Virus record (IMG/VR): IMGVR_UViG_3300017759_000107
Coordinates: 1-21,485 of that record
DNA: 21,485 nt
Origin: a virus
Reading direction: 5' to 3' (one strand)
This document shows, piece after piece, positions 1 to 17,302 of this stretch. Every line of letters begins with the position of its first letter. Position 1 is the stretch's first letter. The notes below the pieces were generated by a model. It saw nothing but the letters and a program-made list of their open reading frames with translations, was not told the origin of the DNA and made no database searches. Made by a program: the position numbers and the translations under genes.

Positions 1-815
1 CCAAAATTTAGTGTTGGATTTGTTGGACTATTATCTTGTATTAGTTTTAATTGACCTAATGAACCAGTTGATGTTGCTGAACCACTTATCAATCCATTGG
101 CTTTTCCAGAAATTATGTTTCCATTGGTAGAAATAATATTAGTAGCAGCAGTGATTTGCCCACCTAATTCGACAGCATTACCATCTATTCCAATCTCTAT
201 GTTATTAGAACCATCAACACCTATTATACGAACATCACCATCACCAGCTTGATTTCTCGCATATATGAGACCAGAATCTCGTGGAAATCTAAGTTTACCA
301 TCCGATGCAACATTAGTTCCTGCAGCAATAAAACCACTTCCACTTATATCACCTGCTACTTGAAGTTTATTAGCTGGAGTTGTTATGCCGATGCCGACAT
401 TTTGACTTGCATCTATTCTTACGGCTTCGGTTCCAGCAGCTGTTTTTATAACAACTTGACCACTTGCAACATCACTTCCAATGTTTAAGACCTTAGTGCC
501 ATGAGAATAATCTAAGACCGCACCTCTATTGTCTGATGGTGATCCAAACATCAAATTACTAAATTTATCATCAGGTGTTAATATAGAAATACCACCGTGG
601 TCTGAGTTTTCTACTACTAAATCATCACCATCTGTTCTATCGGTTGTTCCTACACCAGAAGCAGCAGTTGTTACAATAAGTGAACCTTGAACTCTATCAG
701 CGACTACTAATGAACCAAATGAACCGGTTGAGGTAGCTGAACCACTTACATTACCTTTTTTAAGGGTAAGGTCATGATTTAAAATATTTTTACCTATGTA
801 TTTTAGGTTAGCCAT
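1..815 (-). CDS. Phage fibre-like protein, C-terminus cut by the left edge
   Basis: The frame opens with ATG at 815 and has no stop before base 1, so about 271 N-terminal residues are visible. GGAGAT lies 8 nt before the ATG, inside the end of the preceding gene, and supports this start. The product is rich in Gly, Ser, Thr and Asn with no signal peptide or membrane segment. It carries SGSATSTGSFG at residues 24-34, a second copy near the left edge, and NVGIGITTPANKLQVAG near residue 140. The NVGIG..P..KL.V.G pattern is common in beta-helical tail fibre shafts, and the same signatures occur in the 732-residue protein at 1146-3344, so the two are related fibre components. It is the last gene of the fibre cluster. 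The missing C-terminus would show whether a receptor-binding tip or a self-cleaving chaperone domain follows. The exact location on the virion is unknown. Confidence 0.8.
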   Translation of the reverse strand, partial: MANLKYIGKNILNHDLTLKKGNVSGSATSTGSFGSLVVADRVQGSLIVTTAASGVGTTDRTDGDDLVVENSDHGGISILTPDDKFSNLMFGSPSDNRGAVLDYSHGTKVLNIGSDVASGQVVIKTAAGTEAVRIDASQNVGIGITTPANKLQVAGDISGSGFIAAGTNVASDGKLRFPRDSGLIYARNQAGDGDVRIIGVDGSNNIEIGIDGNAVELGGQITAATNIISTNGNIISGKANGLISGSATSTGSLGQLKLIQDNSPTNPTLNF

Positions 816-3234: not shown

Positions 3235-3344
3235 CTACCCTTACCATCTATTGTAAGGGCTGAGCCCGAGACTCCAAGACTACCAGAAACATTTAAAGAA
3301 CCTGTTAGTACGCTATCAAATTGTTTTAATCTTAACTTAGCCAT
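1146..3344 (-). CDS. Large repetitive phage fibre protein (732 aa)
   Basis: A Gly/Ser/Thr-rich, largely beta protein typical of elongated trimeric fibres, with no signal peptide or membrane helix. Six copies of an SGSxxSTGSF motif punctuate the chain, the first at residues 39-48. Two shaft motifs of the type VGIG..P..KL.V.G occur near residues 273 (NVGIGTTNPTKELHVVG) and 455 (VGIGNSSPARKLDVSG). Around residue 295 it contains GILTAQEFHTEF followed by a GS(T/S)(K/Q)FGDT.DD module that is shared with the gp15-like protein and the LamG protein at 3647-5143. Start: AGAAGGTG lies just before ATG at 3344, and the gene overlaps the upstream small gene by 13 bp. It is probably part of a side or tail fibre. 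Which receptor it binds, and whether it attaches to the neck or baseplate, cannot be told. Confidence 0.8.
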   Translation of the reverse strand: MAKLRLKQFDSVLTGSLNVSGSLGVSGSALTIDGKGSVSGSALSSGSFGRLNSYTLDIDSIQGNWTNAGNTVADGGTFTTIDINGGTINGITDLAVADGGTGVSTLTDGGVLLGSGTDAITATAVLTNGQLLIGDNSGDPTIATLTGTSNQVTVTNGAGSITLSTPQNIHTSATPTFGTITTTGNITGSSTSTGSFARLDIADKAFFGSSNGDVRIGSGAGLNITHDNSGLTVVTLNHLYATSNAGAQMKLQSGFLTFHTGTSNTERVRIDASGNVGIGTTNPTKELHVVGDALVTGILTAQEFHTEFVSASIQFTSGSTKFGDTTDDLHSITGSLVITGSSLTIDSVGGVSGSASSTGSFGRVQVSSGKVLGVSTSGVSTPLNIVGGTSTSAGGLKIGAYNASFGGLWSGAVTPATSNYALVANATRTVLNATSDIIFFIGDSTNNFYMNSTGVGIGNSSPARKLDVSGTGRFTDTLTTAAITTTGITSTGNISGSSTSTGSFGHVYAVGEVSADSFVSRDGSSTISFQDDVAFGSDDSITSIQNITASGNISSSATSTGSFSNIVTNTRGVHRYGVQALSDFSSDVHTAGVDGRGGGMLIENTHSSGRAILRMRGGSGISHLLYGENNSTDEINISPRNQTQNVFKMDSVGDITVPGDITLSGTGTGAGDGDIIAAGKIQVEGNISGSATSTGSFGRVSAAGDIYSEGRIFESGTSVIDHATAMAIVFGG

Positions 3345-3595
3345 TCACCTTCTCTTTTATCTTCCCACCATTTTTTAACACTATGGGATATTTTCTTTTT
3401 ATGTTCAACTGATTTTGGTTTTTTCATTTTCTGTAGTGTTTCCATTGTAAGCTTCCTATCTAATTGTGCACATGATTTACAAACTGTATTGTTACCAACT
3501 GCTCTATCAAAAGAATCTTTTCTAGTATAATAAATCACTTTACTACAATCAGGACATTTTCTATTTTTTCTATTCTTCCAATATCGTTTTCTCAT
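3332..3595 (-). CDS. Small zinc-finger / NUMOD3-like protein, possible homing-endonuclease remnant
   Basis: A basic protein of about 87 residues from ATG at 3595; a GTG at 3610 would add five residues (IFII type), but neither start has a good ribosome binding site. CPDC and CKSC, spaced 21 residues apart, form a likely four-Cys zinc site. MKKPKSVEHKKKISHSVKKW resembles the NUMOD3 DNA-binding helix found in phage homing endonucleases. No HNH or GIY-YIG catalytic motif is visible, so it is either a decayed homing endonuclease or a stand-alone DNA-binding protein. It lies between two fibre genes and its 3' end overlaps the start of the 732-residue fibre gene by 13 bp. Unlike its neighbours it is Lys/Arg-rich with no fibre repeats, which suggests later insertion. 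Family assignment is by motif only. Confidence 0.6.
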   Translation of the reverse strand: MRKRYWKNRKNRKCPDCSKVIYYTRKDSFDRAVGNNTVCKSCAQLDRKLTMETLQKMKKPKSVEHKKKISHSVKKWWEDKREGEWLS

Positions 3596-3599
3596 AATA

Positions 3600-3607
3600 A
3601 TAAATAT
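3600..3607. promoter_or_regulatory. ATAAATAT motif in the gap after the LamG gene
   Basis: This is one of five occurrences of ATAAATAT, one in each larger gap between genes here. It sits only 5 nt before ATG 3595, so it cannot be an ordinary promoter for a leadered mRNA of that gene. It may be a chance AT-rich match. Confidence 0.2.
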
Positions 3608-3646
3608 CACGAAATGGTAAAAGAAAAGTGGAACTATAAAAGTATT

Positions 3647-5143
3647 TTATTCTTTATCCCAAGTTGCACCATCTATCGTTCCATGATTTCCCTGCCCACT
3701 AAAATCATTAACCACACTACCGCTACCCTCATTCATTCTCCAATATGCCTGTAAATCATCTTCATTGATTAAATTATATGGTGTTCCACCATTATAGTAC
3801 AGAGCAGCTTTACTCGATTTATCACCATCAAAAATACCAAATTCTCTTAGTTCACCTGCAAAATGTCTACCACTATTTGTTGAATTATTTTGATATGATC
3901 CTATGGTTAAAGGTTGAGCTTGGGTTTGTAAATTAGATACCGTACCACTCGTTACAAATAAACTAACTCCTACATCAACACCATCAACAAATAATCTAGA
4001 ACCAGTTATTGCATTTACATCGTTAAAAAGTAAAAAGTGATGCCATTCACCATCATCTTGAGCTGATGTGTCGTTAAAAAAAGCATACCAATTATTTCCA
4101 TTCCAAATCAAAGGTCTACCGCTACTCCAATTCGGTGAGAAAGCACCCTTTCTCTGTCCACCATATGCAAACACAGACTCATTTTTAGAAGTTTGACTTG
4201 AATTATACCAAAAAGAATATGTTAGGTTTCTAGGTGTAGCACTACTACCTGAAAATGTGGTTGTTACCTCATCATTACTGCCATCAAAACTCAGATAATT
4301 AAATTCACTTTCAAATTTACCCCAAGCAACAATTTCATCGGTTGATTCCAAATCATACCCCACACCATCGTTATCAATTTCTAGATGAAGTAAAGAACCT
4401 GTTTGTCTTATTGTCAATGCATCGTGTTCTATCATCTGTCCGTTTAAGAAAAACATAAAATCGTTTTCAGTTGTTGTTGTTATACCTGTTGGTGCTGAGG
4501 CGGTTGTCGCTGTAAAACTAGCTGTACTTGAATTTATAAAACTACCAGTATGAGCAAAACATTTTCTCAAGTAAGTCTGAAAATTATTTGTATTATTATC
4601 TATATATGTTTTAAAAGCATTTTCTGTAATTACAGAATTTGATCTATTATCTGCCATAGAGGTATCGTTTGATATTTCTTCTATGGAATCGTTATTTAAT
4701 CGTAATGAACCTGATACTAAAAGACTACCACTAAACTGATGAGTGTCATCGCTTGTGTCTCCAAATTGTGTAGAGCCACTTTCAAATAAAGTAACGGATT
4801 GGGTTAATTCTGTTTCTATTTTTTCAGCTGTTAGAATTCCTTGTACAGTTAAATCACTAGTACCTACAAGATTACTTGATATTGTTTTAGAACCAGCTAA
4901 TGTAAAAGAACCTAATATAGAACTACCAGATAATACCAAACCACCATCGTTAATTGTAATTTTTTTGTTAGTTACTGTTACTTGATCAAATACAACATTT
5001 GAACCCGATGACACTGCTTGACCTATGGAAAATGTGATTGTTTGTGATGGGCTTACCTTTCCAAATAATTCGGTATCATTTGGTTCTATGGTTACACCAG
5101 TAAATTGTTTAAAAATTAATGGTGCTTTAAAAATAAAAGCCAT
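3647..5143 (-). CDS. Fibre-like protein with C-terminal LamG / concanavalin A-like lectin domain
   Basis: A 498-residue protein in two parts. Residues ~35-280 are a Ser/Thr/Gly-rich stalk plus the block VITENAFKTYIDNN, STASFTATTASAP and FFLNGQMIEHDALTI, ending in DEIVAWGKF. This part closely matches residues ~320-563 of the upstream gp15-like protein and is clearly paralogous. Residues ~281-498 look like a LamG/concanavalin A-type jelly roll: YLSFDGSNDEV, LTYSFWY, DGEWHHFLLFND, RLFVDGVDVG, FAGELREFGIF and LQAYWRMNEGSG followed by NHGTIDGATW. Such domains usually bind glycans, so adsorption to surface polysaccharide is the likely role. AGGA lies upstream of ATG 5143. The gene follows the gp15-like gene after 8 nt, which suggests co-expression. 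No signal peptide is present, as expected for a virion protein. The sugar ligand is unknown. Confidence 0.8.
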   Translation of the reverse strand: MAFIFKAPLIFKQFTGVTIEPNDTELFGKVSPSQTITFSIGQAVSSGSNVVFDQVTVTNKKITINDGGLVLSGSSILGSFTLAGSKTISSNLVGTSDLTVQGILTAEKIETELTQSVTLFESGSTQFGDTSDDTHQFSGSLLVSGSLRLNNDSIEEISNDTSMADNRSNSVITENAFKTYIDNNTNNFQTYLRKCFAHTGSFINSSTASFTATTASAPTGITTTTENDFMFFLNGQMIEHDALTIRQTGSLLHLEIDNDGVGYDLESTDEIVAWGKFESEFNYLSFDGSNDEVTTTFSGSSATPRNLTYSFWYNSSQTSKNESVFAYGGQRKGAFSPNWSSGRPLIWNGNNWYAFFNDTSAQDDGEWHHFLLFNDVNAITGSRLFVDGVDVGVSLFVTSGTVSNLQTQAQPLTIGSYQNNSTNSGRHFAGELREFGIFDGDKSSKAALYYNGGTPYNLINEDDLQAYWRMNEGSGSVVNDFSGQGNHGTIDGATWDKE

Positions 5144-5151
5144 TATAAATC

Positions 5152-6843
5152 CTAAGAGTTAAACTTACCTATTGCCAATACCTCATCATCTGTTTCTAGA
5201 TCATAACCTATACCATCGTTATCAACTATTACGTGAAAAGTAGAACCTGCCTGTTGAATTGTAAGTGCATCATGTTCCATATATTGACCATTTATAAAAA
5301 ATATAAAATCATTTTCCGATGTATCAGTTAAATCACTAGGTGCTGAAGCTGTTACTGCTGTGAAACTAGCAGTACTTGGAGCTGTTATGGAAGATGAAGT
5401 CTTTACAAATTGTTTTCTCAAATAAGCCTGTTGAGTATTGGTTTGATTATCCACATAAGTTTTAGCAGCATTTTCCGTAACCAATGATGTAGCACTGCTA
5501 TCATTTAAAGCTGTATCATTTGATATCTCGGTTACGGAATAATTATTTAGTCTTAATGAACCAGATGTGAAAATACTACCGCTGAATTGGTGAGTGTCAT
5601 CTGCAGTATCACCAAACTGTGAAGAACCACTTGAATAAATTATTGAAGCAGATGTAAACTCGGTATGAAATTCTTGAGCTGTTAAAATACCTGCTATTGT
5701 TGTATCACCATTAACAGTTAAACTACCAGTAACGGTTACTGCTCCCAATATACTTAAACTACCACTAATGCTACCATCGTTGTATGTGTTATCACCCAAG
5801 ACAACAGAACTAGCAGAAATTTGATTGAATGTAACATCATCGGTTACTGCTACAGGTTGACCGATTGATATTGTTTGATTTAAAGTAGAGCTACCATTGA
5901 ACTCAATTCCACTATTTGTTAATGTAACACCAGTTCCAGCTGTAAATATTAATGGATTTGTTACTGTAATAGCTATATCCGATACCGTGGTACCTGGTGA
6001 AGAAACTGAATCTGATAAACCCTCTGTAAATTGTCCACTTCTACCAGTAGTATTATTTATTATAGCATCAGATTCCATACCAAATACAAGTTTTTTTGGT
6101 GTTATAAATTTTTGTGTGGTTGAACGATGATCAAAATTACCCTTTGGTAACAAGTAACCTTTTAGAGTAACTGTAAAATTTGTTCTTACCAACCTTTCAC
6201 CATCACTTAATTCTGTTGCATCTGTAAAACTTTCTACATTAGTTCTAAATCTCAGTTTGTTGGGATCACCCCAATAAGCTCCATCTGAATATACTATCCT
6301 TTCCACTATCTTATTCATCTGTTCTATATAAGTTGTCCAAATAATAAAATCATATGTTAATGTAACATAATCTGGTAACATTACGTTGTAATATTCTCGT
6401 TGAGGTATAGTTCCTATTTGAGTTTGAAAATTATCATATCTATTTGTGGTTGAAAATTTCTTTTCAAATGTGTAAAAATGTCGTGGATTATTAGCATCTA
6501 ATTTATCTACTGGTAAACTTTCATCTTTTTCTAATCCAGTTCTGCGATAAACAATTACTGGTGTGATTACTTTTTGTTTTTTATCTCTTATAAAACCATC
6601 TTTACTTATTGACTTCCACCTTTCAGGTGAAGCATACATAACTGGTACTTTTACATTCTCACCGTTATCTTTTACCGATGGTTTTATGATTTCATTAAAA
6701 TAGTATAATATGGAACTATCCATATCCATAAGAGTTACTTCAGCATTTTTTATATTCTCGTTTTTTCTGGAATACAAATACCCTCTGTTTATAACTCTTT
6801 GTTTTCTTGGTAACGGTTTATTAGACTCACTTCGATTTGACAT
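5152..6843 (-). CDS. gp15-like tail completion protein fused to a C-terminal fibre-like domain
   Basis: A 563-residue protein, about twice the length of T4 gp15 (272 aa). Residues ~40-255 resemble the gp15 tail terminator / sheath-stabiliser layout: ILYYFNEIIKPSV, VPVMYASPERW, LPDYVTLTYDFIIWTTYIEQ, MNKIVERI and RLVRTNFTVTLKGYLLP. Gene order gp13-gp14-gp15, as in T4, supports this. Residues ~290-563 are different: a Thr/Ser/Gly-rich stalk with GILTAQEFHTEF, SGSLRLNN, LVTENAAKTYVDN, FFINGQYMEHDALTI and a terminal DEVLAIGKFNS, paralogous to the N-terminal part of the next gene. The start overlaps the gp14 stop by 1 nt (TAATG), with GAGAAG upstream. gp15 normally forms a ring at the top of the tail, so the extension could display fibres at the neck; this is inferred. 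The N-terminal assignment rests on motif pattern, not a computed alignment. Confidence 0.65.
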   Translation of the reverse strand: MSNRSESNKPLPRKQRVINRGYLYSRKNENIKNAEVTLMDMDSSILYYFNEIIKPSVKDNGENVKVPVMYASPERWKSISKDGFIRDKKQKVITPVIVYRRTGLEKDESLPVDKLDANNPRHFYTFEKKFSTTNRYDNFQTQIGTIPQREYYNVMLPDYVTLTYDFIIWTTYIEQMNKIVERIVYSDGAYWGDPNKLRFRTNVESFTDATELSDGERLVRTNFTVTLKGYLLPKGNFDHRSTTQKFITPKKLVFGMESDAIINNTTGRSGQFTEGLSDSVSSPGTTVSDIAITVTNPLIFTAGTGVTLTNSGIEFNGSSTLNQTISIGQPVAVTDDVTFNQISASSVVLGDNTYNDGSISGSLSILGAVTVTGSLTVNGDTTIAGILTAQEFHTEFTSASIIYSSGSSQFGDTADDTHQFSGSIFTSGSLRLNNYSVTEISNDTALNDSSATSLVTENAAKTYVDNQTNTQQAYLRKQFVKTSSSITAPSTASFTAVTASAPSDLTDTSENDFIFFINGQYMEHDALTIQQAGSTFHVIVDNDGIGYDLETDDEVLAIGKFNS

Positions 6844-8622: not shown

Positions 8623-10293
8623 TTAGACATAGTTTACATCAGCAACAATGACTTTTCCGTAGAATTCAGGTCTTACAATCTTCTTTGCATAACGAGTCAT
8701 AACACCTTTACGTGGAGTAAAGTTCTTAGGATCGTATACAAGAGGAGTCATAATTAACGGAACATACGGAGCATACACAGCACCAGTTTCTAGGAAGTTA
8801 CTTCCACGGAAACCAACCAATATCACGTTTTCGAACTGATAAGGGTTTTTGTAAACTGTATATCTGTTGTTCAATAAACCAGCCTTTTGAACACCCATTG
8901 CGTAAGATTTGTTAGTTGAAGCTCCATCACTATCTGTTGTATATCCTGGAATTGATTCTAGGATTGTAGCAACCTCAGGACTTACTACGATGAAGTTTGC
9001 ACCACCACGTAGAGTTTTCTGATGAATTGCATTAGAAACAGATTGTATCTTGTTACCAAGAGTCTGGAACCAATCACCTTTAGTGTATGCATTAGATGCA
9101 CCAGATGATTCAGCAAATAGAGTAGTAGCTGAATTATATTCAAATCCAACTCTTGCTGACCAGCGTTCTGTCTTAGCGTTAGCATTCATGTTAAGCATGT
9201 CAAGGATTTCTAAATCGATTTCCATTGTTACATACTCACTCAATAGAGCTGTTAGTTCTGCTTCAGCATCAACTGAATGGTATGCATTCAAGTCTTGTGC
9301 TAACTCAGGAGTCCATACAGCTTTCAACTTACGAGTCTTAGCAACGATAGGAATTGATCGCATTGCGATATCAATTTCTGGTATATCAATGTCCGTTTCT
9401 GGATTTGCATCGATTTGTGTTGCAGTTGCCTCGAAATCACCACGAGTGACATCAGTAGGCTGTTTGTGATAATTAACAGTTACGTGTAATCCTGCAGCTG
9501 CTACTTCATCTACGATAAAACGTACATGAGAAGCTTCACCACTTGAAGGTTCTACTTCGTTTCCATTAACACCATCCAACATTTTTGTATATGCTGGGTA
9601 GTATGCATCAAATGCAGTTGAACCTGTGATTTCAAAGGCTTTAATACCTTCTTTATCAGGATTAGTCATTGTACTTAAAGCTACATCAAAGTACTTCAAG
9701 CTACTTAAAGATGCTGATAGACCTGGTTCATAATCAACATCAGCCCAAGTAATTGAACCAGTTGAAGTTGCACCAGCTTCAGAAGCTAGACCAATTTCAT
9801 AAGATGTGCCTGGATAATCGTTTATTGAATATCCACTTCTACCTGCACCATAAAGACCTTGTGATGGATCAGCGTTTGAAGCTGATGTGATACCAAATAC
9901 TTGGTCACCATCACCAAATCCAGCTTGAGCTGTACCATATTTAAAATCAAGATAGAAAATCAGACCAGATGGTAGATTCATAGGTTGTACAGATACGAAC
10001 TCTTGAGCTGCTAACTCACCAAAGATTTTTCTTACCAATGGCAACGCAACACCAGACCATTCCTCAGAATTTGCAGATGTTCCAGTTGAACTAGCTTCGT
10101 CAATTAACTGACGGGCTTGGTTTTCTAGAAGAACTGCCATTCCATTAACTTTCTGTTCGTCTGTCATACCTTCTAACAATCCAGTAGGCTCCCACTTCTT
10201 GATTAATCCGCGGGTTTCCTCTTGTCGTTGACGATGTGGGTTATACCCATCCATCAATTTCTCGACTGTAGAGAGATTTTTAAAATTTGACAT
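8623..10293 (-). CDS. 23: Major capsid protein gp23
   Basis: A 556-residue T4-type major capsid precursor (T4: 521 aa). An N-terminal helical region of ~66 residues ends in RQLIDE followed by ASSTG; hydrophobic-X-Glu at residue 66 matches the gp21 cleavage site of T4 gp23 (after residue 65). Family signatures follow: ALPLVRKIFGELAAQEFVSV and then VQPMNLPSGLIFYLDFKYG (residues ~102-120), the same place as VQPMNSPTG in T4, and a C-terminal KGVMTRYAKKIV. The product forms the hexamers of the head shell. GGAGA lies upstream of ATG 10293, and the scaffold gene 22 ends 21 nt before it. A strong terminator follows. The gene reads visibly less AT-rich than neighbouring genes, consistent with codon selection for high expression. 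No gp24-type vertex paralogue is seen in the window. Confidence 0.95.
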   Translation of the reverse strand: MSNFKNLSTVEKLMDGYNPHRQRQEETRGLIKKWEPTGLLEGMTDEQKVNGMAVLLENQARQLIDEASSTGTSANSEEWSGVALPLVRKIFGELAAQEFVSVQPMNLPSGLIFYLDFKYGTAQAGFGDGDQVFGITSASNADPSQGLYGAGRSGYSINDYPGTSYEIGLASEAGATSTGSITWADVDYEPGLSASLSSLKYFDVALSTMTNPDKEGIKAFEITGSTAFDAYYPAYTKMLDGVNGNEVEPSSGEASHVRFIVDEVAAAGLHVTVNYHKQPTDVTRGDFEATATQIDANPETDIDIPEIDIAMRSIPIVAKTRKLKAVWTPELAQDLNAYHSVDAEAELTALLSEYVTMEIDLEILDMLNMNANAKTERWSARVGFEYNSATTLFAESSGASNAYTKGDWFQTLGNKIQSVSNAIHQKTLRGGANFIVVSPEVATILESIPGYTTDSDGASTNKSYAMGVQKAGLLNNRYTVYKNPYQFENVILVGFRGSNFLETGAVYAPYVPLIMTPLVYDPKNFTPRKGVMTRYAKKIVRPEFYGKVIVADVNYV

Positions 10294-10314: not shown

Positions 10315-11463
10315 TTAAAGAATACCTGCCAACTTCTTAAATCTAGCCTTCAACTCTGAACCTTCTGAAATCACTTCTGATTTTTTAGATTTTGTTGAGG
10401 CAACAACTTTAGAAGCTGAACCTTTTGATTCTTTAATTTGATTTTTAGTTTGTTTACTACCAAACGATTCTGCTAAAGTGGAATAAACCAATTTAACTTC
10501 ACGTAAGTTAGCTGCTCTGTCAAAAGTTTCCACAACTTTCATCTTCTGTTCATTGGTTAAACCATGTGAACGGAAAAGTTTGTTTGTGAAAAGTAATTTT
10601 GCATTAAGCAAGTTAACTTCATTTAGTTTGGAACGTAAGTATTTAACCACATTGCGATGCTCATCGAGATCAGATTGAAGATTTGCAACTTCATTTTTCT
10701 CCTCTTCTTTCTTTTCTTCGTCATCCTCTTCTTCGGAAAGTGCTTTTAGTACTTCTTCAAGGTCGATATCTTCTTCCTTATCATCTTCTTCTTCCTCAGT
10801 TACTCTAACTGATTCAAATTTAGCTTTATCTTTAGTACCAATGGCAGAAGATTTATCAGCTGTTCCGTTTTTATTGTCGGATGAACCGATTCCAGATGTT
10901 GCGTCTACTTCTTCTTCAACATCCTCTTTATCTTCTTCATGCTCACCTTCATCGATTTCTGTTTCAAGTTCTTTGATTACAGCTTCAAGGTCAAGGTCTG
11001 TTTCTTCCATCTCTTCATCTTCATGATATCCCTCTTCCTTTTCATCATCTTCTTCCTCAGAAACAACAGGTGCGTATTTTACTCCGTTGATTTCAATTAC
11101 TTTAGTTTCATCCATATCTTCATCTTCGTCATGCATTCCTTCTTCTTCCATATCTTCATCTTCGTCATGCATTCCTTCAGCTGGTTCATCGTCATCATCA
11201 TTATCAGCGTCAATGTTAATATCTACTCCACCATCTTCTTTATCATCTTCCATGTCCATTTCATCTTCTTCCATCTCTTCATCTTCATGATATCCTTCTT
11301 CTTTTTCGTCATCTTCATGATCCATTTCAGATTGGATTTTCTTTGAAAGCATAGATTGTAATCGTGGTGTAAAGGCTTCTTCTAAAGCGATCTTTGCATT
11401 TTCCAAAGCGGTTTCACGAACTGCTTTTGCATCTGCAATGGCTTCTTTTAATAGATCATCCAT
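10315..11463 (-). CDS. 22: Prohead core scaffold protein gp22
   Basis: A 382-residue, very acidic protein directly before gene 23, the T4 position of the scaffold gene 22 (T4: 269 aa). Residues 1-40 are helical (MDDLLKEAIADAKAVRETAL). The middle ~50-260 is almost entirely Asp/Glu with His and Met, including duplicated blocks (HEDEEMEE and EGMHDEDEDM, each present twice). The C-terminal third carries the family-like signature LNEVNLLNAKLLFTNKLF, then LTNEQKMKVVETFDRA and VKLVYSTLAES, and ends in a basic tail KARFKKLAGIL. Scaffold proteins form the transient core of the prohead and are degraded by gp21. GGAGA precedes ATG 11463. The extra acidic length and duplications are unusual compared with T4. 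A 142-nt leader with hairpins separates it from the bS21 gene and may set its expression. Confidence 0.88.
   Translation of the reverse strand: MDDLLKEAIADAKAVRETALENAKIALEEAFTPRLQSMLSKKIQSEMDHEDDEKEEGYHEDEEMEEDEMDMEDDKEDGGVDINIDADNDDDDEPAEGMHDEDEDMEEEGMHDEDEDMDETKVIEINGVKYAPVVSEEEDDEKEEGYHEDEEMEETDLDLEAVIKELETEIDEGEHEEDKEDVEEEVDATSGIGSSDNKNGTADKSSAIGTKDKAKFESVRVTEEEEDDKEEDIDLEEVLKALSEEEDDEEKKEEEKNEVANLQSDLDEHRNVVKYLRSKLNEVNLLNAKLLFTNKLFRSHGLTNEQKMKVVETFDRAANLREVKLVYSTLAESFGSKQTKNQIKESKGSASKVVASTKSKKSEVISEGSELKARFKKLAGIL
11005..11295 (-). repeat. Direct repeat in gene 22 (29 bp, two copies)
   Basis: Identical 29-nt copies at 11005-11033 and 11267-11295 (262 nt apart) encode the acidic block GYHEDEEMEE, and the similarity extends on both sides. 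This points to duplication of an acidic segment inside the scaffold. Confidence 0.8.
11111..11178 (-). repeat. Tandem repeat in gene 22 (36-bp period, two copies)
   Basis: The 32-nt copies at 11111-11142 and 11147-11178 are identical, with a 36-nt period, encoding EGMHDEDEDMEE twice in frame. This is a recent tandem duplication that lengthens the acidic middle of the scaffold. Confidence 0.85.
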
Positions 11464-11605: not shown

Positions 11606-11782
11606 TTAAATTAATTTTCTTCTTAGTTTAGCTTTTGCGTTTCTTTCTTTTTTTATTAAAGATGGTTTTTTGTAGAACTCACGTTCCCTCAATTCCAACA
11701 TTAATTTACTTTCTTTTACTTTCTTTTTTAGTTTACTTAAAGCTTTGTCTATGTTGTTGTTATAAACTTTTATGTAAATCAA
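11606..11782 (-). CDS. rpsU: Phage-encoded ribosomal protein bS21 homologue
   Basis: A 58-residue, strongly basic protein. IYIKVYNNNIDKALSKLKKK aligns with the bS21 start (E. coli VIKVRENEPFDVALRRFKR), and ELREREFYKKPS with the bS21 signature EVRRREFYEKPT. A Lys/Arg-rich tail follows (KKERNAKAKLRRKLI). E. coli bS21 has 71 residues, so the C-terminal basic extension is shorter. bS21 sits on the small subunit beside the 3' end of 16S rRNA and assists initiation. The start is TTG at 11782: an in-frame TGA lies four codons upstream and no ATG is available before the conserved region. A perfect AGGAGG lies 4 nt before it, overlapping the TAG stop of the upstream gene, so coupled translation is likely. 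Phage bS21 genes are known in marine phages. Incorporation into host ribosomes here is inferred. Confidence 0.88.
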   Translation of the reverse strand: MIYIKVYNNNIDKALSKLKKKVKESKLMLELREREFYKKPSLIKKERNAKAKLRRKLI

Positions 11783-11783
11783 G

Positions 11784-11792
11784 TAGCCTCCT
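11784..11792 (-). promoter_or_regulatory. Shine-Dalgarno site that fixes the TTG start of bS21
   Basis: AGGAGG on the minus strand (about 11787-11792) shares bases with the TAG stop of the preceding gene and ends 4 nt before TTG 11782. It is one of the strongest such sites in the window and is the main evidence for a non-ATG start. Confidence 0.75.
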
Positions 11793-12417
11793 AATCAGCT
11801 TCGTTATCACCCTGCCAATTCTTATCTATGTAGTTAAAAAAATCTTTTTTCTTATCATCTTCTAATTCATCAGGTGAACTTACATTATATTTTTTCAAAG
11901 CTGCATTAAAGAACTTCTGATATGCTTCCTTATCACCAGACTCTTCGTCAATTGTCTCACCTATGGAATAATATCTGCTTAGGATATTACCCATATCTTC
12001 GTATAAAGCACCCATTCTTTGTTTTAATCCATTTGCTTCAGAAGAAATCTTACTGAACTGCTTAGACAATCCAGTAAGTTCCTTCATATTACGATTTACA
12101 GTTATTTTATCAAACCAACTATCAGTTTCTTGAAGAGTATGAGACTTTGCTTGACTAGCAATCCAACTTAATTTTTCTGATATCTTGGTTATATCGGACT
12201 TACCGAAAATAGATTCTCCTAATTTGTTGTATTGTGCTAACTCAGTAGTTAATCCCTTTACATCAACACTTTGTCCATCTACATCACCGTATTTTTCTTT
12301 TACGATTTTAGATAAACTTTGATCTGTATGAAAAGGTGTACGAGAAACCACACCACCCATTAGTGTACCGCTAAAGTTTTCATTTAGCAAGTCTTTTAGT
12401 TTTATTTTCTTAGACAT
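11791..12417 (-). CDS. Candidate head internal protein with cleavable leader
   Basis: A 208-residue protein I do not recognise. The N-terminus MSKKIKLKDLLNE then NFSG has the shape of a T4 capsid-targeting leader: a short basic/amphipathic helix ending in L-N-E, the gp21 type of site, which would release a mature chain from residue 14. The rest is mostly helical, with heptad-like stretches around residues 90-150 (SKQFSKISSEANGLKQRMG) and an acidic C-terminus. There is no signal peptide, membrane segment or cysteine. AGAGGACAT lies before ATG 12417. The stop forms part of the bS21 ribosome binding site. The location between protease and scaffold/capsid genes suggests a protein packed in the prohead core, perhaps ejected with DNA. 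Function is inferred from leader and context only. Confidence 0.65.
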   Translation of the reverse strand: MSKKIKLKDLLNENFSGTLMGGVVSRTPFHTDQSLSKIVKEKYGDVDGQSVDVKGLTTELAQYNKLGESIFGKSDITKISEKLSWIASQAKSHTLQETDSWFDKITVNRNMKELTGLSKQFSKISSEANGLKQRMGALYEDMGNILSRYYSIGETIDEESGDKEAYQKFFNAALKKYNVSSPDELEDDKKKDFFNYIDKNWQGDNEAD

Positions 12418-12440
12418 GATATGTCCTCTTTATTTAATTA

Positions 12441-12989
12441 TTATGTAAGTGTTATTGAACCGTCAGCATCATACACAGCATCAAGAAACCAATTAGTTCC
12501 ATCTGACCACATTTCAGCCATATCACCAGCAGTTGCTTTATTATGTACAAATGTTACCACTCCTTTAACAGCTACAACATTAGCTCCATTGTCATCACCA
12601 TGACCTCTAACATTACCGATAATTAACGGTGAACCAGCTGTTCCGTTGGAAGTTGAGTGAACCTTAATAGCTGCTGCTGCATTATTTGCTATTGATGGTG
12701 CTCTCAAGATAAACTTATAATGAAGTCCTCTTTCTGGTGTTGGTAGAGCTAATGAAAAACCCATACCTAATGCCTGTGCAGTTCCGATAGCACTACCTAG
12801 TACAACATATCCACTCTCAGCACGTGATAGTGAACCTGATGGATTGTCGCCTGGTGAAACTGCTCTTGAACCAGTATCACTAGCATTTAAATTTGTTACG
12901 TTACGAAGCACCATAGAATCACCGTGGAAGTCTAAATCACCTCCGAAGATACCATCAACGCTTTCGTTAAAATCCTGTCCTCTTTTCAT
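12441..12989 (-). CDS. Beta-rich virion protein, candidate capsid decoration protein
   Basis: A 182-residue Gly/Ala/Asn/Ser-rich protein with the layout of small phage beta-sandwich proteins: GMGFSLALPTPERGLHYKFI (residues ~76-95), a middle region with AAAAIKVHSTSNG and PLIIGNVRGHG, then GDMAEMWSDGTNWFLDAVYD and a terminal DGSITLT. The ALP.PE.GL.Y.F and SDGTNW patterns recur in structural proteins of marine phages, but I know of no certain function. The N-terminus MKRGQDFNESV contains F-N-E, possibly a short processed leader. AGGAGAG precedes ATG 12989, and a 73-bp AT-rich gap before it may hold a promoter. It sits just upstream of bS21 and the capsid genes, so a head decoration or head fibre role is plausible. 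A minor tail or fibre protein is the alternative. Confidence 0.65.
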   Translation of the reverse strand: MKRGQDFNESVDGIFGGDLDFHGDSMVLRNVTNLNASDTGSRAVSPGDNPSGSLSRAESGYVVLGSAIGTAQALGMGFSLALPTPERGLHYKFILRAPSIANNAAAAIKVHSTSNGTAGSPLIIGNVRGHGDDNGANVVAVKGVVTFVHNKATAGDMAEMWSDGTNWFLDAVYDADGSITLT

Positions 12990-13035
12990 TTTTACTCTCC
13001 TAATTTTATTTTATTGTTGGACTACTCATATACAT

Positions 13036-13043
13036 ATAAATAT
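13036..13043. promoter_or_regulatory. ATAAATAT motif upstream of the candidate decoration gene
   Basis: On the minus strand AACTTATATTTATATG lies 47 nt before ATG 12989, in the gap 12990-13062. It shares CTTATATTTAT exactly with the site before the gp13-like gene, so the two are the best-matched pair of the set. Confidence 0.35.
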
Positions 13044-13062
13044 AAGTTATCAAAATTTTTCT

Positions 13063-13455
13063 TTATCTTAGTTTTCCTTTTGGTGAATATCTTCTAAAGC
13101 CATCACGAACCTTTCTCCATAACATTCTCATAAAAGGTCTTTCACCCTCATGTGTTCTGTTAAACGGGCCAACTTTAATTCCCCTCTGTATATCCAAAGC
13201 ATCGTATCTACCAGATTTAACACCATCCATCATGATCTTTATTACTTGTTGTGAAGCCTTACCTAAAACCTTTGACATCTTTTTTATATCAGCGTCTATG
13301 TGTAGTTTAGCTTCACTATCACTATATTTTGGTGGTGTGTCCATATCCTCTTCAATCTGTTGAGATGATTTAAATGAGGTTGCAAATGGATTTGAGTAAA
13401 CCCTACCAGTTGATACCATGTTTTCAGACATTAATTTTTTATAATTTGATTTCAT
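13063..13455 (-). CDS. Candidate head internal protein, 130 aa
   Basis: The N-terminus MKSNYKKLMSE then NMVSTG has the capsid-targeting leader form, with M-S-E at residues 9-11. The body has an acidic segment (EEDMDTPPKYSDSEAKLHID), a helical segment with KKMSKVLGKASQQVIKIMM, and a strongly basic C-terminus (MLWRKVRDGFRRYSPKGKLR) that could contact DNA. No family is recognised. The ATG at 13455 directly follows the stop of the DUF3008 gene (TAAATG) and lacks a clear Shine-Dalgarno site, so translation probably depends on coupling. No membrane segment or cysteine is present. Packaging inside the head with the DNA is the inferred role; it rests on the leader, charge pattern and location. Confidence 0.62.
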   Translation of the reverse strand: MKSNYKKLMSENMVSTGRVYSNPFATSFKSSQQIEEDMDTPPKYSDSEAKLHIDADIKKMSKVLGKASQQVIKIMMDGVKSGRYDALDIQRGIKVGPFNRTHEGERPFMRMLWRKVRDGFRRYSPKGKLR

Positions 13456-14586
13456 TTAAAATTTCTTATTTCCGTCTTTCCAATGAACACCATCATAGTA
13501 TAGATTTGCTTTTCTAATTCCTGTATTCTTTGTTAACTGATTAACAAAAAATCCTTTATCTCGTGGTCGTATTCCAATAACATTTAACTTATTACCCTTT
13601 AATTTATAACTACCCTTATTATTAATACTTCCACTGCGTACTAACATTTTAATCCTATCTTCACCCCTGAGGTTATCATTACTAGTTTCATCAACATTCA
13701 TACTATCTAAATGTGCTTGAATTCTTTTTGATTGACCTAGATGCATCTTTGATGCACCTTCGAGTTCTTTAACTATTTTTTTTAAATCTTCTACATCCTC
13801 TTTTAGTAATCCTTCATCAACTTTATTTTTATTTGTTGGTTTACCTAAACTTTTTCGTATTTCACCCCTAACATACTCTCTTAATTTAGATACAGCTTCA
13901 GTTTTGGATAATTCATTACCTGTTCTAAATGAGATACCTGAAGCTTTGGCTTGTGCTTTAGCATCAGCATCTGACATCTTCTTATCACCTTTTTTCTTAT
14001 CGTCTTTTTTCTTACCCTTGACCTTATCCATCAACTTACTGAAAAAACCCTTTGCTTTCTTATGACCTGGATGATCTTTATCAGCTAGAGCAGTACTCAT
14101 CTTGTTTGTTCTACCTGTTTTTGAATTTTTAATTGTAGCTGTTTGGATGGCACCCATTACAGAGCCTGGTATTTCATTTAAAGTACCTTCCTTTTTCAAC
14201 CTACTCTTTTCAGCTCTTCCTCTGTTTTTAGATTGTGCTTCAAATCCCACGATTTTTCCTCCTTTATGTGATGCATCTTTACCATCACCATTTCCATAAG
14301 TACCTTTTTGTCTGTTGTACTTATTTAATTCAGCTCTATACTTCTTAGATTTTTTAGATGATTGAAATTTCTTATACTCATCCTTGTAATCTCTTTTTGT
14401 TTCTTCCTTAACCTTTACAGGTAAATCATCATGATCTGTTTTTGCATATTTTTTAACAGACTTCTTAGTCATAGACTTTGCTGCTTTCTTTACTGCTTGA
14501 CTTACCTTCGAAGCTGGAACCTCTCCTTTTTTAAAAGCATGAACCAACCCCATAAATTTTTGTTGTTGTTTAGACTTAGCAGGCAT
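13456..14586 (-). CDS. DUF3008-type basic head protein (376 aa)
   Basis: Residues 1-60 match the DUF3008 pattern: MPAKSKQQQKFMGLVHAFKK, a helix with SQAVKKAAKSM, then KKYAKTDHDDLPVKV. Such domains occur alone as short proteins; here one heads a much longer chain. Residues ~65-135 are basic and disordered-looking, L-N-E occurs at 136-138, ~175-205 is a Lys run (KVKGKKKDDKKKGDKK), ~225-300 is helical, and the C-terminus (IRPRDKGFFVNQLTKNTGIR to YYDGVHW) looks like a small folded domain. The high positive charge suggests DNA binding inside the head. The start overlaps the preceding stop by 1 nt (TAATG) with no clear Shine-Dalgarno site. V-D-E at 256-258 and 298-300 are further possible processing sites. 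The molecular role of DUF3008 is not known to me. Confidence 0.7.
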   Translation of the reverse strand: MPAKSKQQQKFMGLVHAFKKGEVPASKVSQAVKKAAKSMTKKSVKKYAKTDHDDLPVKVKEETKRDYKDEYKKFQSSKKSKKYRAELNKYNRQKGTYGNGDGKDASHKGGKIVGFEAQSKNRGRAEKSRLKKEGTLNEIPGSVMGAIQTATIKNSKTGRTNKMSTALADKDHPGHKKAKGFFSKLMDKVKGKKKDDKKKGDKKMSDADAKAQAKASGISFRTGNELSKTEAVSKLREYVRGEIRKSLGKPTNKNKVDEGLLKEDVEDLKKIVKELEGASKMHLGQSKRIQAHLDSMNVDETSNDNLRGEDRIKMLVRSGSINNKGSYKLKGNKLNVIGIRPRDKGFFVNQLTKNTGIRKANLYYDGVHWKDGNKKF

Positions 14587-14933
14587 TACTTATACTGTTT
14601 TAGTTCCATATCACATTTTTTCAACATTACAGCCATCATTTTAGTATATTTTTTAATTATTTTATATGGTTCTTTTTCTTCCATCATACCAGAAAATTTT
14701 CTCCATGATTTGGTTCGGTTAAGTACTTCATCTTCCATATACTCAAGTGCGATATCATTATAATCTCGATTGGTTGATGATTCTTTTATAGTTGATTTAC
14801 ACCCACATGAATTACCAGTATCACAACCACACGATTCATTGGTTTTTTCAATCACGGATTTTAATGTTGGAAGTGGTTCACCAAAACTCCTATCCCAAAC
14901 ATTCTCACTTAACATCTCTTTTAATTTTATCAT
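14586..14933 (-). CDS. Candidate head internal protein with CxC...CxC motif
   Basis: A 115-residue protein with the clearest T4-style leader: MIKLKEMLSE then NVWD, with L-S-E at residues 8-10. After it, SCGCDTGNSCGC places four Cys as two CGC pairs about 6 residues apart near residues 34-44, a possible metal site unusual for a protein made in the reducing cytoplasm. The C-terminal half is helical and basic (KPYKIIKKYTKMM-type: EKEPYKIIKKYTKMMAVMLK), ending CDMELKQYK. AAGGAAA lies before ATG 14933. The stop overlaps the start of the DUF3008 gene by 1 nt. I do not recognise a family. Packaging in the prohead and possible injection are inferred. Confidence 0.62.
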   Translation of the reverse strand: MIKLKEMLSENVWDRSFGEPLPTLKSVIEKTNESCGCDTGNSCGCKSTIKESSTNRDYNDIALEYMEDEVLNRTKSWRKFSGMMEEKEPYKIIKKYTKMMAVMLKKCDMELKQYK

Positions 14934-14945
14934 TATATTTTCCTT

Positions 14946-15179
14946 TTAATCCCAACCTTTATAAGCTTTATCTAAATATCTAGTTAATTCATCGTCTAGT
15001 TTATATATTTTATTAATAATAGATTTGAGTTTACCATCACTTTTAAGTTTTTTATTAGCTAATTCACCTAATCCCTCAACTGCATCACCGAATTCATAAT
15101 AAGCATCTCGTATATTATCTAATTCTGCTCCAGAATTTTCTCCAAATAATCTCTTATATGTTTTTTTTAAACTTCTCAT
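14946..15179 (-). CDS. Small head-region protein with leader, 77 aa
   Basis: The N-terminus MRSLKKTYKRLFGE then NSGAE is basic and ends in F-G-E at residues 12-14, similar to the leaders of the neighbouring genes. The remaining ~63 residues are acidic-to-neutral helices (LDNIRDAYYEFGDAVEGLGE, then NKIYKLDDELTRYLDKAY). AAAAGGAAA lies in the last codons of the upstream gene, and the ATG overlaps its stop by 1 nt, so translation should be coupled. No family is recognised. Its size is close to T4 gp67 (80 aa), a small prohead core protein, but no sequence match is evident. Confidence 0.6.
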   Translation of the reverse strand: MRSLKKTYKRLFGENSGAELDNIRDAYYEFGDAVEGLGELANKKLKSDGKLKSIINKIYKLDDELTRYLDKAYKGWD

Positions 15180-15430
15180 TACATTTTCCTTTTAAGGTTT
15201 TCAAATTTTGCTTTAAATTCTAAAATGTAATTTTTATAAAGTTTTTGCATTTCCATAGACTCGGCTTTCATTCCATCCTTACCCAAATCCCTAGCAAATT
15301 GTTTAACATTCTTATCCAATCTGACTAAACTGCTATCTATATTACTGACATATCCTCTGAAATAATTTGGAATGGATTCATCCAACCGCCAATCTCTCCA
15401 CTTTTCTATAATTGATTTTTCTCTAGGCAT
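15179..15430 (-). CDS. Small helical head-region protein, 83 aa
   Basis: An 83-residue helical, basic protein starting MPREKSIIEKWRDWRLDE then SIPNYF; L-D-E at residues 16-18 could be a processing site. The C-terminus is Lys-rich (ILEFKAKFENLKRKM). GAGAGGAAA lies within the last codons of the protease gene, and ATG 15430 is 1 nt after its stop, so the pair is translated together. No family is recognised. The tight coupling to gene 21 makes a prohead core role plausible. Confidence 0.6.
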   Translation of the reverse strand: MPREKSIIEKWRDWRLDESIPNYFRGYVSNIDSSLVRLDKNVKQFARDLGKDGMKAESMEMQKLYKNYILEFKAKFENLKRKM

Positions 15431-15431
15431 T

Positions 15432-16058
15432 TTAGTTTCCTCTCATTATATCATTGATGATTGATTCAACCTTACAATACTCACCACAGGTTCTACCACT
15501 AGTTATGGTCTTATCAACGCTCTCATTTACGCCCGTAGGATACATGAATGCACCATGTGTAGATGGATTTGAAACAAAGTCAAATGCGATCAATTCAAAA
15601 TCATCCTGTACTTCTTGTGATTGTCCACCATTATCCTCTGTTACAGTTTCTACTGAACCCATACCACGAGAACTAATACCAAGTTTTATATTACCCTTAA
15701 ATAATTCTTTTAATATGTTACCACTCGGTGTGGATAATACTTCAACAGTACCTAATAAATTATCACCTTCCCAATGCATGTCTTTTATATTATGGGATAC
15801 ATTCTGTAAATTTACCACCGATGATTCTGGATGATCTAGTTCACCCATAGCCCTACGTTGACTAATAAATTCCTTATGATACTTTTTAGCCTCACGAGTT
15901 AATATTTCTCTTGGATATACCCTACCGTTTTGATTCTTAGCTTCAGCACGTTGTAATACACCCTTAACAATTAATTTACCATTGTTTTCACTCATGGATT
16001 CATTAATATGTTCTGGTTTAATTTCAAATGGTAAATAATCTACTATTAGTTGTTTCAT
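15432..16058 (-). CDS. 21: Prohead maturation protease gp21
   Basis: A 208-residue protein, close to T4 gp21 (212 aa). It cleaves scaffold, capsid and internal proteins during head maturation. Family features: GKLIVKGVLQRAEAKNQNGR and VYPREIL (residues ~27-54), the catalytic-His block MGELDHPESS (His76), IKDMHWEGDNLLGTVEVLST (residues ~91-110), the Ser block KLGISSRGMGS (Ser129 or Ser130), and the conserved AFDFVSNPST (residues ~159-167). These fit the herpesvirus-protease-like fold of gp21. Possible self-processing sites are I-N-E near residue 20 and V-N-E at 177-179. The start overlaps the stop of the 62-residue gene by 4 nt (ATGA). It lies between portal and capsid genes, as in T4. Confidence 0.92.
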   Translation of the reverse strand: MKQLIVDYLPFEIKPEHINESMSENNGKLIVKGVLQRAEAKNQNGRVYPREILTREAKKYHKEFISQRRAMGELDHPESSVVNLQNVSHNIKDMHWEGDNLLGTVEVLSTPSGNILKELFKGNIKLGISSRGMGSVETVTEDNGGQSQEVQDDFELIAFDFVSNPSTHGAFMYPTGVNESVDKTITSGRTCGEYCKVESIINDIMRGN

Positions 16059-16255: not shown

Positions 16256-17302
16256 TTACTGTAATTTTCCAACTTTATTAGCTAATTTAACTAACCTTTC
16301 ACTTATTTTATGTAACGCCTTGTGTGTATTTTTCCAATATGAACCTGAATTCACATTCATTTCTTTCTTTAATCTAACATTCATATCAATTAGTTTACTT
16401 AATTCACTTAAAGAATTTTTAACCTCTCTCATTGAATGACCAATTTTTTGTTTTGGAGTCATCGACTCATCATTTCTGTAATCGTGGTATTTTCCCTCAT
16501 TTAAACCTGGATTTTTTTGTTTTTGATTATTCCATCCGTTTAAAAACTCATAAAATTTGTTAACATACTTTTTAAATGCGGTATATATTATTTTTTGATC
16601 TGTTCTATCTCCATCAATATCTACTGCAGATTTAGTTAAAATTACCACTTCTCTATTAAACTGTTCATATGCTTTATAAAATCTATTCCACGCTTTGTTG
16701 TATTTTTTCTTTTGACCTTCATTTACGGATTCTTTTACACCTGTACCACCCATTTGTTTATAAACCTTTATTAGATTCTTTAGGTGTTCTTCATCTCTTG
16801 CATTAGTGACGCTACCTTGTTTCTTAATCTTCTTTTGAAACATCAGTATAGCATCTTTAATCTTTTTCAATTCTACTTTAGCTAAAGTTCGTTTATAAGC
16901 CATACCAACATTGTCTCTTTCATTTACGGATTCATTAGCCGTAAGAAATGAAATGTATTGGGCTAATTGTGCTGGTGTTGCTCCAGACCTATCCCCTTTG
17001 GCTTTCTTATAGTGTTTATCCACCCACGGTTTTACTTCTTTTGGATTATTACCATACTTTATTAAAAATTTTACAATCTTTGCTTTTTCTGCGGAGTTTT
17101 CATTTACTTTTTTATATCCTGTGGAGTTTGTGGAGATTTCTTCCTCTTTATCCTTGTCTTTTTTCTTTTTTCCTCTAAAAGCATAAGGTGTTTTCGGTGG
17201 GCCTTCTCCACCATCAAGTGCACCAGTAACAGAAGCTTCCTCTAACTCATCTTCTATGACCTCTGTAATGTATTCTTTAATCTTACTAAGATTTATGGAC
17301 AT
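16256..17302 (-). CDS. Multi-module helical head protein with repeated V/L-N-E sites (possible polyprotein)
   Basis: A 348-residue, Lys-rich, mostly helical protein. Residues 1-22 form an amphipathic acidic leader with I-K-E, I-T-E and L-E-E; 23-60 are disordered-looking (GEGPPKTPYAFRGKKKKDKD). V-N-E then occurs at 66-68, 126-128 and 193-195, and L-N-E at 267-269. These sites split the rest into four helical pieces of about 60, 67, 74 and 79 residues, each predicted compact. Because gp21 cuts after hydrophobic-X-Glu and its gene is nearby, this may be a precursor cut into several internal proteins; that is inferred. AAGGAG lies in the last codons of the upstream gene, which it overlaps by 17 bp. 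No family is recognised for any module, and no catalytic motif is seen. Confidence 0.68.
   Translation of the reverse strand: MSINLSKIKEYITEVIEDELEEASVTGALDGGEGPPKTPYAFRGKKKKDKDKEEEISTNSTGYKKVNENSAEKAKIVKFLIKYGNNPKEVKPWVDKHYKKAKGDRSGATPAQLAQYISFLTANESVNERDNVGMAYKRTLAKVELKKIKDAILMFQKKIKKQGSVTNARDEEHLKNLIKVYKQMGGTGVKESVNEGQKKKYNKAWNRFYKAYEQFNREVVILTKSAVDIDGDRTDQKIIYTAFKKYVNKFYEFLNGWNNQKQKNPGLNEGKYHDYRNDESMTPKQKIGHSMREVKNSLSELSKLIDMNVRLKKEMNVNSGSYWKNTHKALHKISERLVKLANKVGKLQ

Follow-up and report, generated by a model that had tools for sequence, protein, structure and literature searches.

It is difficult to tell from sequence which proteins a phage brings along into its host, and the locus considered here raises the question of whether such proteins can be recognized by the way they begin. 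The window, by which we mean the whole stretch of DNA analyzed, is IMG/VR virus record IMGVR_UViG_3300017759_000107 (21,485 bases) from a marine phage related to T4, and it carries a T4-like head operon on the minus strand. The gene order is terminase, portal, two unassigned genes, a 62-aa gene, a gp21-family protease, seven genes, a bS21-like gene, an acidic scaffold-like gene, a gp23-like capsid protein gene, and then neck and fiber-like genes. A first-pass annotation had proposed that unrelated proteins encoded between positions 11791 and 15430 share short leaders ending in hydrophobic-x-Glu (Phi-x-E), comparable with those that target T4 internal proteins to the capsid and are lost to the gp21 protease. 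We consider, with good confidence, that these leaders are T4-type capsid targeting sequences cut by the S77 protease after Phi-x-E.

Leaders in the window and its relatives

All six peptides named in the first-pass annotation are found at the genes to which they had been assigned (Table 1; arrows mark predicted cuts), and relatives retain five of them. The exception is FNE↓SV of the 182-aa protein, which had been put forward only as a possibility; it reads FNKS in the 75% identical homologue of locus L028 and was rejected as a leader because FNE is not conserved. The proposed family is therefore represented by five genes of the stretch, one further gene, for the 376-aa protein, starting instead with a DUF3008 domain. 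The bounds of the stretch had been drawn too narrowly, in that matching sites upstream were omitted, namely those of the 348-aa protein (ELEE↓AS) and of the protease itself (INE↓S at Glu20 and MSE↓N at Glu24).

The comparison set comprised the window and 80 IMG/VR loci whose proteases share 82-100% identity with that of the window; L001 is a copy of the window and was excluded, and L002 is almost the same phage. Genes in the relatives were called with a simple program written for the analysis, and their start sites are possibly wrong; L078 and L079, in which the caller missed the protease, were left out of the cargo set. Cargo genes, defined as those between the protease and the bS21-like or scaffold gene, numbered 270, or 126 after de-duplication (80%, first 40 residues), and 115 genes (terL, portal, neck, and others) served as controls. 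Shuffles were composition-preserving.

The leaders are real, and they lie far above chance. The motif [LIVMF][LIVMF]xE with its Glu at residues 6-25 occurs in 62 of the 126 cargo genes, compared with a shuffle mean of 12.9 and a maximum of 22 (none of 500 shuffles reached 62), and in 9 of the 115 controls, for which the shuffle mean is 7.3. With the looser [LIVMF]xE the counts are 97/126 (shuffle mean 46.4) and 32/115 (28.6), respectively. Because related sequences survive de-duplication, the test was also made at the level of families: when each body cluster was given one weight, the strict motif with Glu at residues 7-20 was present in 18.8 of 36, as against a mean of 3.1 and a maximum of 8 in 300 shuffles.

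Exchange of leaders and bodies

Five leader classes recur: A, MIKLKxxLxE; B, KILxSYKKIAKSMLTE; C, KWRDWRLDE; D, KKIKLKDLLxE; and E, YKKLMxE. Class A is found on 14 body clusters (single-linkage BLAST clusters, of which B0 and B1 are mixed), and its residues I2, K3, L4, and E10 are invariant in all 37 distinct DNA versions. Class A leaders on different bodies differ far more often at synonymous than at non-synonymous sites (pS 0.598 and pN 0.187; 471 pairs), so that it is the peptide rather than the DNA that is conserved. For a protein with a class F leader, no relative was found in phages.

Leaders are also exchanged on homologous bodies. The 77-aa protein of the window begins with KKTYKRLFGE↓ and its L005 homologue with MIKLKDILNE↓, other homologous bodies exchange class A and class C leaders, and the 208-aa protein, introduced in the window by KKIKLKDLLNE↓NFSG, has a relative in Microcystis phage Mel-JY01 whose leader ends in VVREVIAE↓NVSG. 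The protease-scaffold interval is thus variable across the 80 loci and the window, with the same leaders on unrelated bodies and different leaders on homologous ones. We read it as a cassette region in which leaders and bodies change partners at the predicted cut site.

In at least 67 loci the class A leader is followed by a segment W.RKFGEPLPTL, which in turn precedes many unrelated bodies. Ten long records carry such genes; the protease is encoded in seven of these, and a search for it in the other three gave no match. In the window the corresponding module, W.RxFGEPLPTL, follows the class A leader of the 115-aa protein and is itself followed by a second candidate site, TIKE↓SST. As a side observation, the segment (loci L099-L165, near position 2001) occurs behind leaders of classes A and B, often with a second Phi-x-E after it. 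In the more distant uncultured phage LR756508 (484 kb; L084, 2093-6260), successive genes preceding those for bS21, scaffold, and capsid protein share another leader family, K..LR..I.EE.

The putative processing machinery

The protease of the operon scores 101 bits against the curated Peptidase_S77 cut-off of 27 and is a member of that family. Aligned with T4 gp21, it keeps the GELxHP (here GELDHP) and SSRG blocks, which we take to contain the active-site residues. A candidate site for such an enzyme is present in the major capsid protein, where LIDE↓A aligns exactly on FLTE↓A of T4 gp23 (Glu65↓Ala66) and is invariant in 5/5 sequences; QLIDE↓[AS] is kept in all 17 capsid proteins of the fetched loci. 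The T4 positive controls have the same form, with motif matches at FIAE↓A in ipII and ipIII (Glu10), TITE↓A in ipI (Glu19), LIAE↓A in gp22, and LLRE↓S in gp24. The published T4 cleavage motif is given as L/I-x-E in PMC9026906, where the first 10 residues of IPIII are described as a sufficient capsid targeting sequence.

The scaffold-like protein, which occupies the position of gp22, gave no family match in Pfam or PHROGs. About residues 117-136 it contains DETKVIEINGVKYAPVVSE, which resembles E[ST]IxINGKKYKPIKE of class B leader proteins, and this similar module in scaffold and class B cargo is possibly a shared docking element.

Enzymes and domain joints

Among the contigs of relatives, leaders are also found on genes outside the head cluster, and several of these encode recognizable enzymes. 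Some join a NUDIX domain (E 5e-13 and 6e-11) to a zincin part, which has an HExxH motif and matches MPTase-PolyVal at E 0.0017, below the cut-off. Zeta-toxin/AAA_33 kinases also bear leaders, some in chains of 1.3-1.4 thousand residues with a cytidylyltransferase-like (CTP_transf_like) domain, as does a protein that matches Tox-ART-HYD1 (25.6 bits, cut-off 25; E 2e-5). The leader is followed by AKQVG directly after the Glu in five of the seven loci of this ADP-ribosyltransferase (ART)-like protein, one of them (L228) having a longer called start; in L225, where the match lies within a long frame, and in L226 there is no leader as called. No relative of the stand-alone zincin was found in the phage collection, and none of the kinase in plasmids.

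Many of these proteins are modular, and a joint was defined as the point at which two cargo or effector proteins that share a stretch begin to differ upstream; it was scored if it lay within four residues of Phi-x-E in both partners. Counting all events, 503 of 957 joints fall at Phi-x-E (null mean 77, maximum 97), and counting one event per module, 76 of 237 do so (null 26.0, maximum 36). None of 12 control motifs equals Phi-x-E, most being at or below the null and several depleted. At the kinase joint, 66 sequences provide 28 distinct upstream 8-mers, all 28 with Glu at P1 and L, V, I, or M at P3, around which P2 and P5-P12 vary. When similar contexts are collapsed and Phi-x-E is sought within eight residues upstream, it precedes the kinase in 19/19 contexts, the zincin in 8/8, the cytidylyltransferase in 12/14, a KOW/SH3-like module in 7/8, a helical GPDD module in 7/7, AFAVRGN in 4/4, and PRVPRKKGQ in 4/5.

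The 376-aa protein of the window has the same modular design with Phi-x-E joints. DUF3008 makes up its first 58 residues, and internal sites end at Glu61, 138, 237, 258, 263, 274, and 300; a DVEDLKKIV module follows LLKE↓ in this protein, and L038 has the same module behind SVNE↓ in a leader protein that stands alone. The pattern suggests that the multidomain proteins of the relatives are polyproteins cut by the prohead protease. Since the cut motif lies between domains, this enzyme probably also separates them into effectors.

Proposed mechanism and alternatives

The comparison with T4 made in the first-pass annotation holds well at the level of sequence, with an S77 protease in the operon, an aligned capsid site, T4 controls of the same form, and leaders that are common to unrelated bodies, swapped on homologous ones, and conserved as amino acids. 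Its mention of a large set of such proteins was right and even understated. We regard a function like that of the T4 capsid targeting sequences as most likely because of the leader swaps, the family-level enrichment, and the alignment of LIDE↓A with T4 gp23. The leader, of 10-22 residues and often basic, would dock its protein on the scaffold during formation of the prohead core, and the shell would close after leaders had docked on the growing core. The S77 protease would then cut after Phi-x-E, removing the leader along with the capsid propeptide. The mature protein would be retained inside the head, from which enzymes would be delivered into the host with the DNA, multidomain proteins probably having been split at their joints into individual effectors by the same protease.

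A broader proposal, to which we give an even chance, is that T4-superfamily phages possess a general tag-and-cut cargo system, in which a lineage-specific capsid tag and Phi-x-E joints yield separate virion-borne effectors. Taken together with it at the same even odds, these effectors would be kinases, zincins, NUDIX hydrolases, and ADP-ribosyltransferases, and the W.RKFGEPLPTL segment would be an excised second docking element.

Several observations weigh against the capsid-targeting interpretation. In the isolated relatives immuto and Mel-JY01 the protease-scaffold interval is short and offers few candidates, and the 376-aa and 182-aa genes of the stretch itself lack leaders. The residue at P3 is M in LMSE of the 130-aa protein and F in LFGE of the 77-aa protein, so that neither conforms to a strict L/I-x-E, which among the five leaders is found in those of the 208-aa, 115-aa, and 83-aa proteins. 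A motif this short turns up often in Glu-rich proteins: in its loose form it is present in 23.0 of 36 families, with 10.6 expected by chance and a maximum of 19. Joints in other genes of the same contigs are slightly raised at Phi-x-E (27/195; null 18.8, maximum 27), and two of the control motifs, E.[LIVMF] and [LIVMF]..E, are enriched 1.29-fold and 1.39-fold per module, or 2.2-fold and 2.3-fold over all events.

It is nevertheless scarcely credible that the leaders are due to chance, with Phi-x-E frequent enough in Glu-rich phage proteins to show up at any N terminus. Some proteins do have many matches, the 208-aa protein nine, and one of the six named leaders proved spurious, but the count of 62 among 126 cargo genes where 12.9 are expected, with controls at 9/115, the result of the family-level test, and the leader swaps at the site all speak against it. 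It is also highly improbable that the shared N termini are a by-product of duplication or recombination that spread a favorable 5' end, the peptide itself having no function. Gene content is variable and leaders recur within contigs, as this would predict; the excess of synonymous differences between leaders on different bodies and the common ending of different classes would not be expected from it. A docking helix that remains uncut, with the conserved Glu forming part of the docking surface, is unlikely rather than implausible. Conservation within a class does span the whole leader, as in the invariant positions of class A, whereas very different leaders share the Phi-x-E ending and the motif is kept at internal joints amid variable surroundings, as at the kinase.

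The alternative that deserves most attention, which we hold to be a real possibility if less than probable, is that the leader proteins are building blocks of the core like gp67 and gp68, chopped during maturation, with most fragments lost from the head. Injected effectors would then be few or absent among the small proteins of the window. This account overlaps with the capsid-targeting interpretation, and it fits the placement of the genes in the protease-scaffold interval, the further Phi-x-E sites of many leader proteins, and the E[ST]I.INGKKYKPIKE module apparently common to scaffold and class B cargo. It also fits the helical, weakly structured character of the two modeled proteins: the 208-aa protein was predicted with a mean predicted local distance difference test score (pLDDT) of 50.6 and the 130-aa protein with 62.9, the latter model giving no match in a fold search of the PDB at E <= 0.001. 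Roles in anti-defense or host takeover, raised in the first-pass annotation, found no support for the window's own small proteins, as nothing usable came of searching them with Pfam, PHROGs, and PADLOC, and no effector family was matched. Essential core parts, however, would not usually turn over and exchange their bodies so quickly, the class A leader is carried by recognizable enzymes in relatives, and some mature parts are poor in internal sites, for example the 65 residues after RLDE↓. The small proteins of the window may themselves be core proteins rather than effectors.

Comparison with known systems

Earlier work has established capsid targeting sequences, cleavage by gp21, and the packaging of effectors. 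In T4, the internal proteins IPI, IPII, and IPIII and Alt carry a capsid targeting sequence (Mullaney and Black 1996; reviewed in PMC9026906 and PMC3012670). Like the proteins of the window, the T4 internal proteins are otherwise unrelated small proteins with a short N-terminal leader ending in Phi-x-E, encoded with a gp21 protease, and the 10 residues that suffice for IPIII equal the length of the class A leader. The leader sequences differ, MIKLK..LLSE, KWRDWRLDE, and others standing in place of MKTYQEFIAE; the window leaders would work like the T4 leader without being its sequence relatives. There are at least five leader classes here and many more tagged proteins than in T4, the tagged genes lie mainly in the protease-scaffold interval, where T4 has none, and the residue after the Glu is mostly Asn or Ser in the window rather than Ala. 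The T4 core proteins gp22, gp67, and gp68 are alike in operon position, in the helical or acidic character of some, and in having multiple Phi-x-E sites, whereas the bodies here are variable and shuffled, with no family match found in Pfam or PHROGs.

Giant phages also have large sets of internal or ejected head proteins with short propeptides, cut after x-x-Glu. In PMC5694885 and PMC9026906, their S80 prohead protease sites are given as S/A-x-E for phiKZ and A-x-E for SPN3US, and SPN3US gp53 and gp54 as paralogues with identical 15-residue N termini. The protease family and the P3 residue thus differ from those of the window. Polyvalent proteins, as outlined by Iyer et al. 2017 (PMC5512222), are effectors that combine several domains, zincin, ART, and Zeta-kinase among them, and are expected to be packaged; the paper likens them to polyproteins and proposes release by embedded peptidase domains. 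The relatives, not the window, encode candidates for such proteins, and here it is a prohead-protease motif that lies at the domain joints, with a capsid tag at the N terminus.

In the open-licence literature, as far as its text was available, we found no description of marine relatives with this many classes of leader and this many tagged proteins, of the RKFGEPLPTL segment, or of prohead-protease motifs at polyvalent-type joints. If leader and cut site are reliable, the injected proteins of uncultured marine, cultured T4-like, and jumbo phages could be listed from genomes, mature ends included, and tested singly for counter-defense or host takeover. Polyvalent proteins would gain a processing enzyme and a processing time, and the leaders would serve as orthogonal tags with which phage heads could be loaded with proteins.

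Cultured phages

Relatives of the kinase are found in 118 phage records, and the upstream junction was read in four: FILKE↓G in HTVC008M, LQE↓G in Melnitz-3, EVTE↓GVND in gp053 of Atu_ph07, and, in Klebsiella phage Matisse, the start of gp236, MKSFKQFTESTLTE↓A, which resembles MKTFKEF...TITE↓A of T4 IPI. A literature search for virion proteomics of Slopekvirus returned no papers. In Atu_ph07, the ten tandem genes gp53-gp62 (L316, 27485-37508) all start with M[KR]WxxLxE, the Glu being residue 8 in 10/10. They lie within CDS 31-76, of which 29 products in all were detected in virions by mass spectrometry according to PMC6102473. When gp54-gp62 are aligned, common YRG, Ser-block, and NE[IV]-like motifs give them an ADP-ribosyltransferase-like appearance by eye; Pfam scans of gp54, gp55, gp59, and gp62 gave no match, and a profile of the nine sequences gave one match in the PDB, to an unrelated protein at E 0.41.

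Other features of the window

The closest named cultured relatives of the capsid protein are Microcystis phage Mel-JY01 (55.7%), the Flavobacterium phages "immuto" (51.4%), and Rhodothermus phage RM378 (38.0%), and that of the protease is Mel-JY01 (59.2%). We infer that the host of the window phage belongs to the Bacteroidota.

Table 1. Features of the window, with predicted cut sites (arrows)
Feature	Position	Strand	Remarks
Major capsid protein, gp23-like	8623..10293	-	phrog_138 E 4.8e-74
Capsid-protein propeptide	10096..10293	-	ends QLIDE↓ASS (Glu66); E66-A67 aligned with T4 gp23 E65-A66
Acidic scaffold-like protein (gp22 position)	10315..11463	-	many Phi-x-E sites; assigned by position and composition
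208-aa leader-bearing protein	11791..12417	-	mainly helical in low-confidence model
Leader of 208-aa protein, class D	12379..12417	-	MSKKIKLKDLLNE↓NFSG; LLNE↓NF, Glu13; K6, K8, L10, E13 invariant in 14 aligned sequences
182-aa protein, judged without leader	12441..12989	-	DFNE↓SV, Glu9, is the site put forward in the first-pass annotation, not a cut predicted here
130-aa leader-bearing protein	13063..13455	-	basic (pI 10.0); mature part helical in weak model
Leader of 130-aa protein, class E	13423..13455	-	MKSNYKKLMSE↓NMV; LMSE↓NM, Glu11
376-aa modular protein	13456..14586	-	N-terminal DUF3008 (PF11450 E 5.3e-8); no N-terminal leader
115-aa leader-bearing protein	14586..14933	-	
Leader of 115-aa protein, class A	14904..14933	-	MIKLKEMLSE↓NVWDRSFGEPLPTL; MLSE↓NV, Glu10
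77-aa leader-bearing protein	14946..15179	-	predicted mature part 63 aa
Leader of 77-aa protein	15138..15179	-	MRSLKKTYKRLFGE↓NSGA; LFGE↓NS, Glu14; MIKLKDILNE↓ instead on L005 homologue
83-aa leader-bearing protein	15179..15430	-	predicted mature part 65 aa, pI 9.7
Leader of 83-aa protein, class C	15377..15430	-	MPREKSIIEKWRDWRLDE↓SIPN; RLDE↓SI, Glu18; class C on several body clusters
Prohead (head maturation) protease, gp21/Peptidase_S77	15432..16058	-	PF03420 E 8.1e-29; phrog_207 E 5.8e-53
348-aa protein, portal-protease interval (T4 gp67/gp68 position)	16256..17302	-	more internal candidate sites
Probable leader of 348-aa protein	17237..17302	-	MSINLSKIKEYITEVIEDELEE↓ASVTG; ELEE↓[AV]S[VM]TG in relatives

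Residues 151-208 of the 208-aa protein, its C-terminal module, are found by themselves in Vibrio phage phiKT1024, preceded by MKQTFREFLEE↓S, a leader like those of T4; in Tenacibaculum phage pT24 the module follows GINE↓S within a protein annotated as DNA ligase 1. The bS21-like ribosomal gene (58 aa; 11606-11782, minus strand) lies inside the head operon and has a TTG start after a strong GGAGG; it adjoins the scaffold gene in relatives too and is annotated RpsU in Mel-JY01. Several of the fiber-like genes (3-6843, minus strand) have common repeats, such as GSxTSTGSFG and AQEFHTEFxSASIxxxSGSxxFGDTxDD. Finally, the DNA end protector of T4, gp2 (L311, 11062-11886), starts with MAIFQIINE↓S, which fits the pattern of a capsid tag.

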